DNA of 20,220 nucleotides, taken from positions 1 through 20,220 of the IMG/VR virus record IMGVR_UViG_3300008117_000732; one strand, 5' to 3'. Below are positions 625 to 15,496 of the stretch, piece after piece. The position numbers were made by a program, and so were the translations under genes. The notes under the pieces were generated by a model, which worked only from the letters and a program-made list of their open reading frames with translations, did not search any database and was not told the DNA's origin. Source of the stretch: a virus. Within the stretch, counting starts at the first letter, position 1, and each line of letters starts with the position of its first letter.

Positions 625-1827
625 ATGGCAACAATTAAAGGATATAAACCACATGATAATCAGAGAGCGATTCACAATGCTATAAACCAGGGCGAGCATA
701 AGTACTATGCGCTCAATATTGGTAGGCAGTTTGGCAAGACCTTGCTAGGGATCAATCAGCTGCTGTATTGGGCCATCAATGATCCAGGATGTAAGATAGC
801 ATGGGTGACTCCGGTGTATAAGCAGGGCAAGAAGGTATTCGCAGACATGGAGCGAGCTGTTCAGAACTCTGGTCTCTTCAACTTTAACAAGTCTGATCTG
901 ATCATCAGTGGCTTTGGATCTACCATTGAATTCTTCTCTGGTGAACGGCCTGATAATATCAGAGGTAATACCTTCCACTACATGATAGTAGATGAGATGG
1001 CCTTCACTAGACCTGAGCTTTGGGATGAGGTCCTATCTGCTACTGTCCTAGTCAAAGGTAAGAAGGTGATATTCATCTCAACTCCAAAAGGTCGCAATCA
1101 CTTCCATAGGATCTGCATGCAACAGAACTATGATGACAGATACAAGTACTTTCACTTTAGCTCCTATGACAATCCCATGATAGATCCCAAGGAGCTTGAT
1201 GAGCGCAAGCGTTCACTGCCTGATCATATCTTCAGACAGGAGTACATGGCTGAGTTCATTGATAACGCATCAGGACTATTCAAGGATATCAGATCCTGCG
1301 TGGGTACCTGGTCTGCTCAAGGCAAGACCTATGCAGGAGTTGACATAGGCCGAGCTGATGACTACACTGTGTTGACCATACTTAACGAAGCAGGGCAGAT
1401 GATCTATGTAGGCCGATGGAGACATGATGAGTGGACCAAGATCATAGACAAGGTAGAGGCACAGATCCGCAAGTACCAGGCAGTGACTCTGATAGAGGTC
1501 AATAACCAGGGAGATATATTCCATGAGATGCTATCATCAAGGTTGCGTAACCTAATCAATCCATTCACTACCACATCCAAGACTAAGCCTGTGATCATTG
1601 AGGACCTTGCTCTGGCATTTGAACAGAAGGAGATCAAGATCCTAGATGAGCAGTGGCTGATAGATGAGCTTGAGAATTTTACTTATATTTACAATCCGAA
1701 TACCAGATCAGTTCAGTACTCAGCTCCTATAGGACTGCATGATGATGGAGTGATCTCACTAGCTTTAGCATGGCACTGCCGTAAGCACTATGCGAAGAGA
1801 GGACAATACAAGATACTAAGAGCATGA
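625..1827 (+). CDS. terL: Terminase large subunit (TerL)
   Basis: ATP-driven DNA packaging motor and headful/cos nuclease. The N-terminal ATPase domain shows a Walker A variant GRQFGKT (residues 33-39), a Walker B MIVDE (120-124, with D123 and E124) and the coupling motif STP (152-154). The C-terminal RNase H-like nuclease has acidic residues D240 in AGVDIG, E291 in LIEVNN and D373/D374 in LHDDG. At 400 residues it is complete but compact for the family. The ATG at 625 follows a taaac leader without Shine-Dalgarno. The stop overlaps the next gene by 4 bases (ATGA), which implies translational coupling. All catalytic motifs are intact. Confidence 0.96.
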   Translation: MATIKGYKPHDNQRAIHNAINQGEHKYYALNIGRQFGKTLLGINQLLYWAINDPGCKIAWVTPVYKQGKKVFADMERAVQNSGLFNFNKSDLIISGFGSTIEFFSGERPDNIRGNTFHYMIVDEMAFTRPELWDEVLSATVLVKGKKVIFISTPKGRNHFHRICMQQNYDDRYKYFHFSSYDNPMIDPKELDERKRSLPDHIFRQEYMAEFIDNASGLFKDIRSCVGTWSAQGKTYAGVDIGRADDYTVLTILNEAGQMIYVGRWRHDEWTKIIDKVEAQIRKYQAVTLIEVNNQGDIFHEMLSSRLRNLINPFTTTSKTKPVIIEDLALAFEQKEIKILDEQWLIDELENFTYIYNPNTRSVQYSAPIGLHDDGVISLALAWHCRKHYAKRGQYKILRA

Positions 1828-2537
1828 AGAAGATTGAAGCATCCTATCCCAAGAGCATCAAGGACTGTACTCCTGAGCAGCTAACCAAGTGGCTTATCTT
1901 GGCTCCACTAGTCAAGGGCAATAATGACAGATTGAGCAATATGCTTGACTTCCATTGTCAGATGATCAGTATATTCACAGGGCTATCTATGAATCAGGTG
2001 CGCAAGGTACATGTGGATGATATCCTTGAGCTTAGCATGAAGCTGCTCAATATGCTTGCAGAGTTCAGACCAACAGATCCCGCAGCATCCATTGAGATAG
2101 AAGGCAAGCGGTATGTCTTTGAGAAGAACTTCGAATATATCACTACCGGACAGATCATAGACTTGAAGCTCATTGAGGATATCACTATGAGTCCATGCGA
2201 GGCATTAGCCATCTGCTACATAGAGGAAGGGATGGAGTACTGCCAGGAAGACAACAGAGGCAAGGTGTTAAACCCTAATAAAGTTAGGGAGGAGATCTTC
2301 AAGAGGTCCTTTCCAGGTGATGAGTTTTTGAACTACTTCGCTTTTTTTTTGCAAGAATCAGAGAAGCGGAGGCTCGCTATATTGGGGATACAGACTCTGA
2401 GGATGATGAATCAGAACATGAATCTACAGAAGGAGCTCTCAGAGATTCTGAATGGTTTACCTGGACAAAAGTCCTCCTCAGGTTGGCTCAAGAGCTTGGT
2501 AAGGATGTTGATACCATCACGCGTCAGCCGTACGTGA
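1824..2537 (+). CDS. Tail assembly chaperone-like protein, zero-frame product (G-like)
   Basis: A 237-residue protein whose start overlaps the terL stop (ATGA). It is helical in character, with a YITTGQIIDLKLIED segment near residues 109-123 and an acidic middle, resembling chaperone-like tail proteins of Bacteroidota siphophages. At codons 173-176 the gene reads gct ttt ttt ttg through nine consecutive T. Without slippage translation continues for another 61 residues, ending in a basic tail. With a -1 slip it enters a longer, better-conserved-looking frame ending at 2608 (separate entry). By analogy to lambda gpG this would be the shorter, more abundant form that coats the tape measure protein. 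Function is inferred from architecture, not from a recognised domain. Confidence 0.7.
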   Translation: MKKIEASYPKSIKDCTPEQLTKWLILAPLVKGNNDRLSNMLDFHCQMISIFTGLSMNQVRKVHVDDILELSMKLLNMLAEFRPTDPAASIEIEGKRYVFEKNFEYITTGQIIDLKLIEDITMSPCEALAICYIEEGMEYCQEDNRGKVLNPNKVREEIFKRSFPGDEFLNYFAFFLQESEKRRLAILGIQTLRMMNQNMNLQKELSEILNGLPGQKSSSGWLKSLVRMLIPSRVSRT

Positions 2538-2608
2538 AGACTCTATTCTGGATGAACTTCTTCAAGCTAAAGACGGAACAAGATTACATATTACAGAAGA
2601 ATGGCTGA
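1824..2608 (+). CDS. Predicted -1 frameshift fusion of the tail chaperone (GT-like)
   Basis: Slippage by -1 on T TTT TTG (2345-2351) joins the first 176 residues to 85 further codons in the -1 frame, read from gca at 2351 to the stop at 2606-2608, giving about 261 residues. The extension begins ARIREAEARYIGDT, passes through an acidic linker rich in D, E and S, and ends with a Trp- and Leu-rich helical part including WFTWTKVLLRLAQEL and VKTLFWMNFFKLKTEQ. Its stop overlaps the next gene's ATG (2601) by 8 bases, filling what would otherwise be a 63-base gap. A G plus GT pair produced by -1 frameshift is widespread in siphophages. A homopolymer length error is the main alternative; it would make this the only product. 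Confidence 0.65.
2342..2351 (+). promoter_or_regulatory. Putative -1 ribosomal frameshift slippery site (T9)
   Basis: Nine T followed by G. Relative to the zero frame (gct ttt ttt ttg) it contains the canonical X XXY YYZ heptamer T TTT TTG at 2345-2351. After a one-base slip both tRNAs can re-pair with TTT codons, and the next codon (gca, 2351) opens 85 codons without a stop. I see no strong stem-loop just downstream; only a weak agcg/cgct pairing lies nearby. Confidence 0.6.
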
Positions 2609-3128
2609 CTTTGATTTCCTTGAGGGATTGGGATTCTCTGAATCTGAACTACAACAGCCTGAGAACGCATACAGCAAGCTGATACAAGGCATTGCTCAGC
2701 AAGTCACAGATGACTTCAAGGACTATATAAACAAGAACGTACACAACACTGGAGCTCTTGCTCAGTCAGTGGTGTTCTTCCCTACAGGGCAATTCAACTT
2801 TGAGATACAAGCGGATGATTACTATAAGTTCCAGGATCAAGGAGTCAATCCAATAGGTCAGAAAAGATTCCCTACAAACTACAAGTTCAAGCTGCCATTC
2901 GTTACCAAGAGTCATGCTCTAGCTATCAAGCAATGGAAGGGATATGACATGAGTCATGCATATGCATCAGCTACCTTGACCAAGAACAAGTATGGTATCA
3001 AGCCAAGGAATATCACAGCTAATGTGATGACTGATGCTGTACTTGAGCGTATAAGCAATGATATAGCTGAGGTGACTGGTCTGATATTCGAGGTTAAATT
3101 CACACAAAACACTAAGACATGGCAATAA
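2601..3128 (+). CDS. HK97 gp10-like tail completion / head-tail joining protein
   Basis: A 175-residue protein probably acting at the neck or upper tail. The HK97 gp10-type signature is visible: a helical N-terminus, NTGALAQSVVF at about residues 48-58 (family pattern TGxLxxS), and DDYYKFQDQGVNPIG around 70-84 (family pattern YxxxxExGT). Near the C-terminus GIKPRNITANVMTDAV resembles the RPFxxPAxxxA helix. Its ATG lies inside the end of the predicted frameshift product, and its stop overlaps the next gene by 10 bases, so it is translated as part of the same operon. Similarity is by motif only. A minor tail or tail terminator role is also possible. Confidence 0.55.
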   Translation: MADFDFLEGLGFSESELQQPENAYSKLIQGIAQQVTDDFKDYINKNVHNTGALAQSVVFFPTGQFNFEIQADDYYKFQDQGVNPIGQKRFPTNYKFKLPFVTKSHALAIKQWKGYDMSHAYASATLTKNKYGIKPRNITANVMTDAVLERISNDIAEVTGLIFEVKFTQNTKTWQ

Positions 3129-8475: not shown

Positions 8476-8500
8476 AAGGCCGGGCAACTGGCCTTTTTTT
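8476..8500 (+). terminator. Intrinsic terminator before the tape measure gene
   Basis: A 6-bp perfect stem (aaggcc 8476-8481 with ggcctt 8490-8495) encloses an 8-base loop, and seven T run through 8494-8500. It closes the fibre cluster. Since I see no good promoter between it and the tape measure start at 8511, partial readthrough is likely. Confidence 0.75.
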
Positions 8501-8510
8501 GAATAAAGAC

Positions 8511-11324
8511 ATGGCAAATAAAGAGGCAATATTTACACTGAGGGTTGATACTGGTAACAGTGTAGCTGAGATCAATGCTTTTGAGAAGGGACTCATAGAT
8601 GCAACTCAGGAGATCAAGGATCTTGATAAGAGTATTGATGATCTGTCAAGCGCATCCACTAACCTGGACCATAGGATGACAGATGTGACTGCTACCTTTG
8701 CTGAGGTATATGGTGAGCTGCAGCCGTTGACTGCTAGAATGGGTGAGGCTGAAGATAGACTCTATGAGCTTGCCCTTGCAGGAGATACAGCATCCAAGGA
8801 GTACAAGCAATTGCTTGACCAGGTTGCCAAGTATAAGAAGGCGCAGATAGAGACTGACATGGTCGTGGATAGAGCATCCAAGACTATTGGTGAGAGGCTA
8901 GTGGGTAGTGTAGGCGGTGCAGTCAGTGTGTTCAGTGGGTTTCAGTCAGCACTTGCCCTGGTAGGTGTAGAGAATGAGAAACTCATGCAGACCATGGTCA
9001 AGCTACAGGCTGCTATGGGACTAGCATCTGCACTGCAGGAGATACAGCTCAAGCTCAAGGAGAAGGATGCGCTATTCTCAGGTATCCAGAATACTATCAA
9101 CAAGCTAGGGAACTTTATCAGATACGGGACCATCCAGGGGATACAGACTCAGATAGTAGCTACTGAAAACTTGATAAGGACTGAGGCTGCTGCAGCTGTT
9201 GTATCTGAGCGAGAGGCTGCTGCAATCAAGGACATCGGTGAAGCTAGTATCATAGCATCCTCAGAGACAAGGGCTTTTGATATTGCAACTAATCAGCTCA
9301 GCGAATCAAACACAGCAGCTGCTATCACTGCAGAGCGTGAGGCAGGAGCTATCAAGGATGTCGGTGAGGCTACTATCATAGCATCCGCTGAGACAAAAGC
9401 ATTCAGTACTAGTCAGAAGGCAGCAGCTGTAGCTACAGGACTAGCATCCAATGCCATGAAGATCCTAAGAGCTGCATTGGTAACAACTGGTATTGGTGCT
9501 ATTGTGGTAGCTGTTGGATATTTGATTGAAAACTTTGATAAGGTATGGAAGGTCATTGAGAGGACTGTCATGTCCATGAAAGGATTGACTGCAGTACTTG
9601 AGTTCTTTGGAATCATTGATGATGCTAATACCAGGAATGCAGTTAAGAATGCTCAGACTACTACTGAAATCATTGAGATACAGACCAAGAAGAAGATAGC
9701 AGCTGAGAGACAGAAGATGAAGGCTACAGAGGACAACTATACTCTTGAGATTAGAATGTCACAAGCTGCAGGCAAGAATACTGAACAGATGGAAGAGCGT
9801 AAGCTCGCTGCTGCATTAAAGTCAGGTAGAGCTATACTGGAGCTTCAGAATCAGAAGATAAAAGGATATAGGTTAGAGCTTCAGACTCTCTTTGATTTAG
9901 GTAAAGGAGATAGTGATAGAGCTATCCAGTTAGTGAAGAATATAAAAGAGAATAAGAAACTAGCTGGTGAGCAGTATGCTGAGAACAAGAAGAATCTAGA
10001 TGATCTGACTGTATTGCGTATTGCAAATGATAAGGCAGAGGCTGACAGACAGAAGGAGGCAGCAGATAAAGCCAAGGAGAGAAGGAAGGCTGCAGCTGAA
10101 GCAGAGAAGGCGAGACTCAAGGAGCTCTATGATCTACAAGTTAAAGCGAATGAGGACAGGATATCTCAGATGGATGCGCAGTTTGCTCTTGAGGTATCAC
10201 TGATGAAGGATGCTAGGGAGAAGGAGATCCAGGAGCTTGTCATGAGCTATGATGAAAAGTTTCAGGTAGCTAATGGGAATGCTGAACTAGAAAAGGCAGT
10301 GGCTGCACAACTCAATGCTGATATAGCTGCTATCAATAAGCGTTTTTTTGATGAGGAGCTAGCTAAGAGAGCAGAGCAAGAGCAAAAGAAACTAGAGTTA
10401 TATAAGAACTTCCGTAGCTTCATGGCTGATGAGTTCCAGCGTGAGCTATATGACTTTGAGGATGCGCAAGCAGAGCAGAGCCAAGCACTTGGTGAAGCAC
10501 TGCAGCTCAATGTGATCACAGCTGATGAATACATGCAAGCACAGCTCAAGCTTGAGGATGAATACAACAAGAAAGTGGTTGAGCTGAATAAGGCCAAGAA
10601 TGATGCTATCAAGGAGCAAGAGATTAAGTCTAGAGAGGAGCAGCTTGCTGGTGTAACTCAAATGCTTGAAACAGCACAGATGGTCTTTGATCAGATCAGC
10701 GCATTTAACACAGCAGTGAATGACTTGCAGAATGCCAGGATGGAGAATGCTCAGGCAGCTGCAGATGATCAGATAGCTACACTAGAGAAACAGCATGAGG
10801 CAGAGCTTAGCAGTAGCAGCTTGACAGCAGAGCAGCGTGAGATGATTGACAAGAAATATGCATCTGCTAAGTATGCCATAGAGCTCAAGAACTTTAATGA
10901 GGTAGAGAAGATCAAGAAACAGCAGTTTGAAAGAGACAAGGCTTTGCGCATTGCTCAGGTAGCTATTGACACAGCTACTGCCATAGTCAAGGGTATTGCT
11001 CAGTTTGGTCCTCCTCCATCTCCTGCCGGTATTGCTGCTATTGCATCAGCCTCCATCATTGGAGCTACGCAGATAGCAGCTATTGCAGCGCAAAAGTATC
11101 AGTCTGGCACTGCGCCATCTCTTGATACTGGAGGAGGTGTGACAGCAGGAGCTACAGCAGGGGAATTAGGCGGTGCCGGTACGAATGCTAACTTGAATAC
11201 ACAGCAGCAGAACACAGCTGAGCTCATAGCACAGACCAATCAAGGAGTAGTATACGTACTGGAGTCTGATATTACTGGCACTCAGAACAAGGTGGCTATG
11301 CAGAATAAGCTAAGCGTTTGGTAA
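8511..11324 (+). CDS. Tail tape measure protein
   Basis: A 937-residue tail length ruler and DNA-ejection protein. Long stretches of Ala/Glu/Lys/Gln-rich coiled coil dominate (about residues 490-780). A hydrophobic, membrane-like segment lies near 319-338 (ALVTTGIGAIVVAVGYLI). A second Ala/Ile-rich region at about 817-861, around FGPPPSPAGIAAIASAS, is typical near the C-terminus of Bacteroidota tape measures. At roughly 0.15 nm per residue the tail would be near 140 nm, a siphovirus length; this is inference. I chose ATG 8511 over an in-frame TTG at 8499 that lies inside the terminator T run. The 3' end overlaps the reverse-strand gene by 29 bases. Confidence 0.9.
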   Translation: MANKEAIFTLRVDTGNSVAEINAFEKGLIDATQEIKDLDKSIDDLSSASTNLDHRMTDVTATFAEVYGELQPLTARMGEAEDRLYELALAGDTASKEYKQLLDQVAKYKKAQIETDMVVDRASKTIGERLVGSVGGAVSVFSGFQSALALVGVENEKLMQTMVKLQAAMGLASALQEIQLKLKEKDALFSGIQNTINKLGNFIRYGTIQGIQTQIVATENLIRTEAAAAVVSEREAAAIKDIGEASIIASSETRAFDIATNQLSESNTAAAITAEREAGAIKDVGEATIIASAETKAFSTSQKAAAVATGLASNAMKILRAALVTTGIGAIVVAVGYLIENFDKVWKVIERTVMSMKGLTAVLEFFGIIDDANTRNAVKNAQTTTEIIEIQTKKKIAAERQKMKATEDNYTLEIRMSQAAGKNTEQMEERKLAAALKSGRAILELQNQKIKGYRLELQTLFDLGKGDSDRAIQLVKNIKENKKLAGEQYAENKKNLDDLTVLRIANDKAEADRQKEAADKAKERRKAAAEAEKARLKELYDLQVKANEDRISQMDAQFALEVSLMKDAREKEIQELVMSYDEKFQVANGNAELEKAVAAQLNADIAAINKRFFDEELAKRAEQEQKKLELYKNFRSFMADEFQRELYDFEDAQAEQSQALGEALQLNVITADEYMQAQLKLEDEYNKKVVELNKAKNDAIKEQEIKSREEQLAGVTQMLETAQMVFDQISAFNTAVNDLQNARMENAQAAADDQIATLEKQHEAELSSSSLTAEQREMIDKKYASAKYAIELKNFNEVEKIKKQQFERDKALRIAQVAIDTATAIVKGIAQFGPPPSPAGIAAIASASIIGATQIAAIAAQKYQSGTAPSLDTGGGVTAGATAGELGGAGTNANLNTQQQNTAELIAQTNQGVVYVLESDITGTQNKVAMQNKLSVW
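9186..9405 (+). repeat. Internal 126-base duplication in the tape measure gene
   Basis: Two diverged copies about 126 bases (42 codons) apart, the first at about 9186-9279 and the second at about 9312-9405. The protein versions share SEREAAAIKDIGEASIIAS versus AEREAGAIKDVGEATIIAS, ending SETRAF and AETKAF. Tandem in-frame duplications like this can change tail length by a fixed step. Confidence 0.7.
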
Positions 11325-11952
11325 TGTACTCACGCTGCGCTTTCTGATTAAACCAGGTATCAGATGTGCTAAAGGATCCATATAGGCTCAGGAACTCCTG
11401 GGCCTTTATTATTTCATTGGCTACTTTGAGATTCTCACCTAGCGTATGCTCGCATCCGTAGTAATTCAAATACATTGACTTGATAAAGTGGTTATGCTGT
11501 TTCCATGTGATGCGGTCAAAGAGTCCTATCAGCTTATCTGAGTCCATCAGTATGGGCTGATGACATTCAAAGTTCACCATGGGTTTGCCTACTGACTTGA
11601 GAAAGTCAATGGTGTTTTGCATGGCCTCTTGATACGTAGGAGCATGCCGGTCATTGATCACTAGATCTCCATTGCTTAGTATTCTATCAAAGCGGTAGTT
11701 CGGACCAATGAAGAAATCATCATTCATATAGCAGAAGGTGCCTGCGTAATGCCAGGCAAAGTGCATCATCTTATTAGTCACATCGCAGCCTCTGATTGGC
11801 AGCGTTGAGATAGGTATATGTATACCATCCGGATGAGGATCTCCAACTATGTAGACTTCAGCCTGCGGATCAAACAGCTTAAGCCAGGTTATTGAATGAT
11901 GCAGAGTATCAAACTTACTACATGATCTCCTATAAGGGTATACGTACTTCAT
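11296..11952 (-). CDS. Stealth/glycosyltransferase-like protein
   Basis: This is the only convincing reverse-strand gene, 218 residues from the ATG at 11952. An earlier in-frame ATG at 11967 would add five residues and overlap the protease reading frame. N-terminal VYPYRRSCSKFDTLHHSI and VYIVGDPHPDG resemble the nucleotide-sugar binding start of GT-A-like enzymes. FCYMNDDFFIG (residues 73-83) looks like the DxD/NDD block of Stealth-type sugar-phosphate transferases, and NFECHQPILMD (127-137) resembles their conserved His-Pro motif. It may modify virion or host glycans, or nucleic acid. It converges on the tape measure gene (29-base overlap) and diverges from the protease. It looks like a moron cargo gene. 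The specific reaction is unknown. Confidence 0.6.
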   Translation of the reverse strand: MKYVYPYRRSCSKFDTLHHSITWLKLFDPQAEVYIVGDPHPDGIHIPISTLPIRGCDVTNKMMHFAWHYAGTFCYMNDDFFIGPNYRFDRILSNGDLVINDRHAPTYQEAMQNTIDFLKSVGKPMVNFECHQPILMDSDKLIGLFDRITWKQHNHFIKSMYLNYYGCEHTLGENLKVANEIIKAQEFLSLYGSFSTSDTWFNQKAQREYITKRLAYSA

Positions 11953-11956
11953 GGAA

Positions 11957-11964
11957 CAAAAATA
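11957..11964 (-). promoter_or_regulatory. Possible -7 element for the reverse-strand gene
   Basis: On the minus strand TATTTTTG matches TAnnTTTG and ends five bases before the ATG at 11952, so the transcript would be essentially leaderless. No clear TTTG is present at the expected upstream distance. The call rests on half a motif plus the need for a separate promoter in this orientation. Confidence 0.2.
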
Positions 11965-11977
11965 CATATTTCTTTAT

Positions 11978-14967: not shown

Positions 14968-15198
14968 ATGAAATTAAAAAAGCATTTAATAGGATCCAAA
15001 GTAAAGAGCCAGGTGCTCAATAGATACTTTGTGATTGAAGAAGGCAAAGAGGACCTATACATCAAGTTAGGTCTTTTACATATCTTTGATGCAACAGAGC
15101 CAAAGATTAAAGTAATAAAGAAGGAAGATGCTAAGATTAGAAAGGAATCAGACAAGCACACTGATAGTGACAGTGACAGAGCTGAAGACTCTGAATAG
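14968..15198 (+). CDS. Small protein with charged C-terminal tail
   Basis: A 76-residue protein starting 13 bases after a terminator T run. The first ~50 residues form a compact beta-type segment (SKVKSQVLNRYFVIEEG, DLYIKLGLLHIFDAT). The last ~25 are very hydrophilic, with Lys/Glu then alternating Asp/Ser (HTDSDSDRAEDSE). This tail is encoded in DNA that also encodes the start of the next gene in another frame. No function is recognised; position between tail tube and portal suggests a minor virion protein. Confidence 0.6.
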   Translation: MKLKKHLIGSKVKSQVLNRYFVIEEGKEDLYIKLGLLHIFDATEPKIKVIKKEDAKIRKESDKHTDSDSDRAEDSE

Positions 15199-15496
15199 TC
15201 CATACTGGCTATTTGAGTTTATGCATGAGCAGTCCTTTGAAAAGGTATACTGCATCCTTACTAATATAAGTACCGGCACTGCAAGGTATGATGAATTTGA
15301 ATTAACTGATGGTGTAGACCTTACATTCCCATATGCTGGATACTATACCTATAAGATATATGAGCAGAACAGTTCTAGCAACTTGGATCCTGCGCTTGCC
15401 ACATCTCTATGTGAGGAAGGTAGAGCGCATATTTATGAGACTAGTAGCCCTGCGAATGAGTATACCACAACAATAGTAAATAACATCTATGAATAA
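15128..15496 (+). CDS. Small virion protein of unknown function
   Basis: A 122-residue beta-rich protein. The start MLRLERNQTSTLIVTVTELKTL leads into a conserved-looking WLFEFMHEQSFEKVYCIL and YDEFELTDGVDLTFPYAGYYTYKIYEQNSS. It matches my memory of a small Bacteroidota phage family with a VTLTE...YxLFxF start and a YxYxIYEQ centre, and this supports the upstream ATG even though it overlaps the previous gene by 71 bases. The stop overlaps the portal start by 8 bases. A head-tail interface role is possible from position only. Confidence 0.65.
   Translation: MLRLERNQTSTLIVTVTELKTLNSPYWLFEFMHEQSFEKVYCILTNISTGTARYDEFELTDGVDLTFPYAGYYTYKIYEQNSSSNLDPALATSLCEEGRAHIYETSSPANEYTTTIVNNIYE

Follow-up and report, generated by a model that had tools for sequence, protein, structure and literature searches.

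G and GT proteins bind the tape measure protein and the tail-tube protein, are absent from virions and occur at a ratio of about 30:1. Work by Xu et al. in 2004 reportedly describes a conserved tail-chaperone frameshift of long-tailed phages. In lambda, gpG and gpGT share one start, and a low-level −1 change at a slippery run joins the N domain to a T-like extension with no obvious stimulator (PMC5009743). The phage G/GT cases that have been studied well are all ribosomal, and phage chaperone frameshifts can work without stimulators (PMC5009743). Programmed transcriptional realignment on runs of nine A or nine T is described for Thermus dnaX, Shigella mxiE and IS elements (PMC1088944, PMC5009743).

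We analysed a 20,220-nucleotide stretch of viral DNA (the window; IMG/VR virus record IMGVR_UViG_3300008117_000732) that holds a gene with a predicted layout like that of lambda gpG/gpGT: one start, a −1 change at a slippery run, an N domain with a T-like extension, and likewise no obvious stimulator. Unlike its lambda counterpart, the gene is a neighbour of terL, with several kb between it and the tape-measure gene, and it would slip at a T9/T10 that is nearly invariant instead of at a varied heptamer. The lambda G shift occurs near the 3′ end of the gene, whereas here the zero frame goes on past the slip for 55–60 codons under selection; neither sequence nor fold similarity to gpG/gpGT was found. 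With the realignment genes it shares nine identical A/T bases inside the gene and a second frame open beyond them. Those cases, however, are bacterial genes and IS elements, while this is a phage gene in which slippage is predicted from the sequence, and one relative differs from them in carrying a ribosomal-type heptamer (L363, below).

A two-frame gene and its relatives

The features of the locus are as follows.

625–1827, plus strand: large terminase gene (terL), directly upstream; 4 bases overlap with the two-frame gene
1824–2537, plus strand: zero-frame ORF, N domain and zero-frame tail; 237 aa, G-like, expected major product
1824–2342, plus strand: N domain common to both predicted products; 173 aa, confident alpha/beta model with pLDDT 89, homologous to P12024S gp38
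2342–2350, plus strand: T9 slip site, zero phase GCT TTT TTT TTG; T9 or T10 in all window-family relatives
2343–2534, plus strand: basic tail of the zero frame (64 codons); together with the −1 frame the stretch is dual-coding, it avoids stops and its first ~25 codons keep their sequence
2351–2608, plus strand: −1 frame extension; 85 codons and stop, short helix, acidic linker and W/L-rich helical domain; T-like
2601–3128, plus strand: next gene, a candidate neck or tail-completion (HK97 gp10-like) gene, linked weakly via P12024S gp42
8499–11324, plus strand: tape-measure candidate of 941 aa; in relatives it invariably lies several kb downstream from the two-frame gene

The zero-frame codons across the run are GCT TTT TTT TTG CAA. 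A preliminary description had recognized the nine T and the heptamer T TTT TTG (2345–2351); the run holds a second, overlapping zero-phase heptamer, T TTT TTT (2342–2348), and the X XXY YYZ slippery pattern is kept in relatives. From the run, the −1 frame is open up to a stop at 2606–2608, with 85 codons past the run (2351–2605), and shares 8 bases with the gene that starts at 2601, in agreement with the extent, acidic linker and W/L-rich end first described. The third frame is shut within 21 codons. The statement that 8 or 11 T would give a single continuous frame was wrong, as 10 or 7 T are needed to join the −1 domain.

Taken together, the locus quite probably encodes a one-start, two-tail G/GT-like pair made by a slip at T9. 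Two proteins would be produced from 1824–2608: the majority would read through T9 in the zero frame and give the 237-aa protein, while a minority would shift by −1 within the run and give a 261-aa protein (...FLNYFAFF[L/F]ARIREAEARY...) composed of the 173-aa N domain, the acidic linker and the W/L-rich helical domain. The frame would change either through RNA polymerase slipping on T9 and adding an extra U, which is somewhat preferred, or through tandem −1 tRNA slippage. By analogy with lambda gpG/gpGT, the short form may coat the tape-measure protein and the long form, which would be rarer, may recruit tail-tube subunits. The predicted models show a compact alpha/beta fold for the N domain and, for the −1 tail, a poorly ordered acidic linker followed by W/L-rich helices.

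Window-family relatives were taken from IMG/VR, which holds hundreds of them; direct matches to the window proteins were not found among phage isolates, and a scan of bacterial genomes gave one MAG contig only, apparently viral. The two domains stand in the −1 relation in 277 of the 280 loci that have both; the exceptions are three loci on two contigs (L024 and L050/L188) whose indels lie elsewhere than at the run. Loci are often repeats of one contig; we therefore counted unique sequences, of which there are 124, forming 9 clusters below 60% identity. All 124 carry T9 or T10, the single T10 (L251) having arisen by substitution of TTG to TTT with the −1 relation retained. The run opens at the third position of a GCT, GGT, AGT or ACT codon, so that the residue varies and the T is constant. 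The −1 domain is 43–82% identical to that of the window across 50 diverse relatives. Some search patterns covered residues at the run, but most covered other parts of both domains, and the invariance of the run is therefore not a search artefact.

The N-domain model also matches gp38 of phage P12024S in BFVD (Foldseek E 2.4e–6), which belongs to a second family that includes the cultured Nonlabens (Persicivirga) phages P12024S and P12024L. Profile comparison shows the N domains of the two families to be homologous (hhalign probability 97%, E 3.6e–11), and their C-terminal (−1) domains agree weakly (probability 6.7%, E 0.0055). In P12024S, gp38 directly follows terL, as in the window, a T9 lies at 23578–23586, and the −1 ORF continues to 23830 with a W-rich helical end. 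It differs in that, relative to the codons, the run is shifted by one base to the left (CTT TTT TTT TAT) and the zero-frame tail has 27 codons only. Three further scans for this family yielded 223 loci with both domains (182 unique, ~49 clusters below 60% identity). The −1 relation holds in 223/223, and T9 or T10 in 181 of the 182 unique sequences. The exception, L363, has ATA AAT TTT ATG within one codon of the homologous site (L363:3500–3560), that is, the canonical −1 heptamer A AAT TTT, and its C domain is still in −1. Flavobacterium phage 6H gp10 was considered as a family member and not counted (Foldseek E 5e–5 but TM 0.31, no T run); an unannotated open −1 frame follows this gene too (L285:10044–10939), and the structural match is weak.

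In both families together, T9/T10 is present in 305 of 306 unique sequences, in about 58 clusters below 60% identity. Conservation of the −1 domain and retention of the run are far beyond chance, and the −1 frame and the T run are under selection. The preliminary description had named relatives with a fused frame or an unconserved −1 frame as what would speak against it; the relatives keep the run, the −1 relation and the −1 domain. Judged from these comparisons, the two-frame device is real, selected and widespread. It would extend the G/GT principle to a phage group that is widespread and unannotated, and P12024S is an isolate in which it is testable: the trans-frame product is expected to give the tryptic peptide MLEAPLIAYSSCILFFLSFR.

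Gene finders split or miss such pairs. The −1 tail of P12024S is annotated as a separate gene, gp39, with the recoding device unannotated. The two (L284:23136–23830; likewise in P12024L) are listed as unrelated hypothetical genes and look like one frameshifted gene, of which phrog_32199 and phrog_38404, both of unknown function in PHROGs, are the two halves.

Selection on both frames past the slip

Alignment of homologues in both frames, proposed at the outset, revealed constraint on the −1 domain and also on the zero-frame tail, a point absent from the preliminary description. Expected numbers of zero-frame stops were obtained by synonymous resampling of the −1 codons with each sequence's own codon usage. 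In the window family, 2 stops were seen versus about 70 expected over −1 codons 0–55, and 32 versus 21 over codons 55–65; in the second family, 13 versus about 165 were found through −1 codon 55, and 71 versus 80 thereafter, counts that are not fully independent owing to common ancestry, although synonymous sites are near saturation (fourfold divergence 0.57) and the depletion stops abruptly at the end of the zero frame. The same frame offset inside the N domain, used as a control, lacks it (observed/expected 0.96 and 1.10), and the third frame in the overlap shows nothing comparable (0.86 and 1.15).

Fourfold-site divergence of the −1 frame drops from 0.57 to 0.06–0.13 over the ~25 codons next to the slip, and zero-frame amino acid identity over these codons is 0.485 versus 0.211 expected. 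Beyond codon 25, the conservation excess of the zero-frame tail only equals that of a non-overlapping control region. About 25 codons thus carry conserved zero-frame sequence, and another 30 are kept open. Since zero-frame stops are almost absent for ~55 codons in both families, the zero frame is itself selected over that length, and the region is dual-coding with two alternative tails. An open zero frame could, in addition, be favoured by translational coupling to the next gene. On the dual-coding reading, the 55-codon stretch implies that the short form needs a tail of its own, whereas the lambda model has no such tail. The two tails of the window are oppositely charged (pI 11.4 and 4.7), as is typical of its family; opposite charge was rejected as a general feature, being not typical of the P12024S family.

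Polymerase or ribosome

The run is composed as 1+6+2 in the window family, and as 2+6+1, 0+9+1, 2+6+2 or 1+9+0 in the other one, and its total is never below nine despite the changing codons (305 unique sequences with runs, both families). In many bacterial genomes, selection against A/T runs, attributed to polymerase slippage, starts to show at nine bases (PMC1088944). An A/T run of about nine or more conserved beyond coding need, which is the mark of transcriptional realignment, is found in 305/306 unique sequences. As for stimulators, RNAalifold on 29 relatives gave 3 pairs and no covariation, an SD-like site upstream of the run occurs in 3/124 sequences only, and a stimulatory RNA structure in the window was discarded because the fold is no better than shuffles (z –0.07). 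With a constant run and no stimulator found, slippage by RNA polymerase would fit at least as well as slippage by the ribosome.

The ribosomal explanation, tandem tRNA slippage on U UUU UUU / U UUU UUG as in lambda-type chaperones, is a strong contender that falls somewhat short of an even chance. A zero-phase T TTT TTT is present in every run, the well-studied phage G/GT precedents are all ribosomal, some of them stimulator-free (PMC5009743), and the A AAT TTT of L363 at the same site favours the ribosome at least in that lineage. Seven T would suffice for such a shift, yet no T7 or T8 occurs among the 305 sequences with runs, and the heptamers are not varied among lineages. The two extra T's would then have to be explained by amino acid constraint in both frames; however, a third TTT codon is present even where the next codon lacks T (CAT, CGT), and the residues at the site are replaceable, as L363 shows. 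Because at least nine T are kept while the make-up varies, seven would suffice and the L363 residues are replaceable, we lean slightly towards transcriptional slippage, at about even standing with the ribosomal route; both may act. Of the programmed −1 frameshift first proposed, the frame change is strongly supported by conservation, stop avoidance and the distant family; the ribosome is one candidate for making it, as the constancy of T9–10 fits transcription at least as well.

Because T9 is nearly invariant over about 58 diverged lineages, transcriptional and translational frameshifting in virion assembly can be tested against each other directly. More tentatively, and with something less than an even chance, a large and mostly uncultured phage group may make a terL-adjacent tail-chaperone pair by polymerase slippage on T9, with the overlap encoding two selected tails.

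Neighbourhood, probable role and weaker alternatives

The gene had been placed right after terL and ~6 kb from the tape-measure gene, which is correct, and the placement is constant in the window family. The tape-measure-like ORF of the window starts near 8499, about 5.9 kb downstream. In window-family contigs that are long enough, the order is a small gene, terL, the two-frame gene, a neck-like gene, two large tail genes, the tape-measure candidate, a protease and the capsid gene. The usual, though not universal, adjacency of G/GT to the tape-measure gene is thus absent; the tape-measure gene lies about 5–9 kb downstream by best-matching segment. In P12024S, too, a tape-measure-like gene (phrog_58, E 2e–4) follows after about 7 kb, and a neighbouring gene is HK97 gp10-like by a weak match.

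Known tail chaperones gave no significant match in Pfam, PHROGs, PDB or BFVD; such proteins diverge fast, and the result is compatible with a chaperone. A PDB fold search with the model found nothing. A weak PHROG 'tail protein' match (0.003) appears in 5/17 second-family members, with otherwise no chaperone link. Sequence matches to clostridial cell-wall-binding repeats in PDB (E about 1e–5) come down to one short Gly/Tyr hairpin-like motif, with no stretch passing on its own, and were judged chance. Of the earlier equation with lambda G/GT, the two-frame layout is therefore borne out, and chaperone identity found no match in Pfam, PHROG or PDB.

Architecture and neighbours nevertheless make a tail-assembly chaperone pair the most likely reading, in which we place reasonable confidence. 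That the two products instead serve DNA packaging or head-neck assembly is unlikely, though worth weighing: the gene has terL and a neck-like gene as its immediate neighbours, in no case the tape-measure gene, and it resembles no known chaperone. Against this, a small soluble N domain with a −1 T-like domain is the G/GT architecture, the neighbourhood consists of tail and neck genes, and next to its tape-measure gene the window shows no evident rival pair.

Two separate genes with a self-started downstream frame, as the gp39 annotation of P12024S has it, are very improbable: gp39 does have an ATG in the −1 frame, but 71/124 window-family sequences lack one among their first 60 −1 codons, conservation of the −1 frame begins at the run, ahead of any start codon, and the T run would be unnecessary. 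Sequencing error or gene decay, conceivable in that homopolymers are error-prone, has a negligible chance and is refuted by the relatives, as an identical run length and frame relation recur in hundreds of contigs, two isolates and the bacterial MAG contig, with selection on both frames.

Three further observations concern the module downstream. Immediately ahead of the tape-measure ORF (within 8494–8511 of the window) there is a T7 that overlaps the listed TTG start at 8499; the ATG at 8511 is likelier. A minus-strand ORF of 223 aa (11296–11967) between the tape-measure and protease genes opposes the whole module. Finally, the ORFs at 14968–15198 and 15128–15496 overlap by 71 bases (15128–15198) in different frames.
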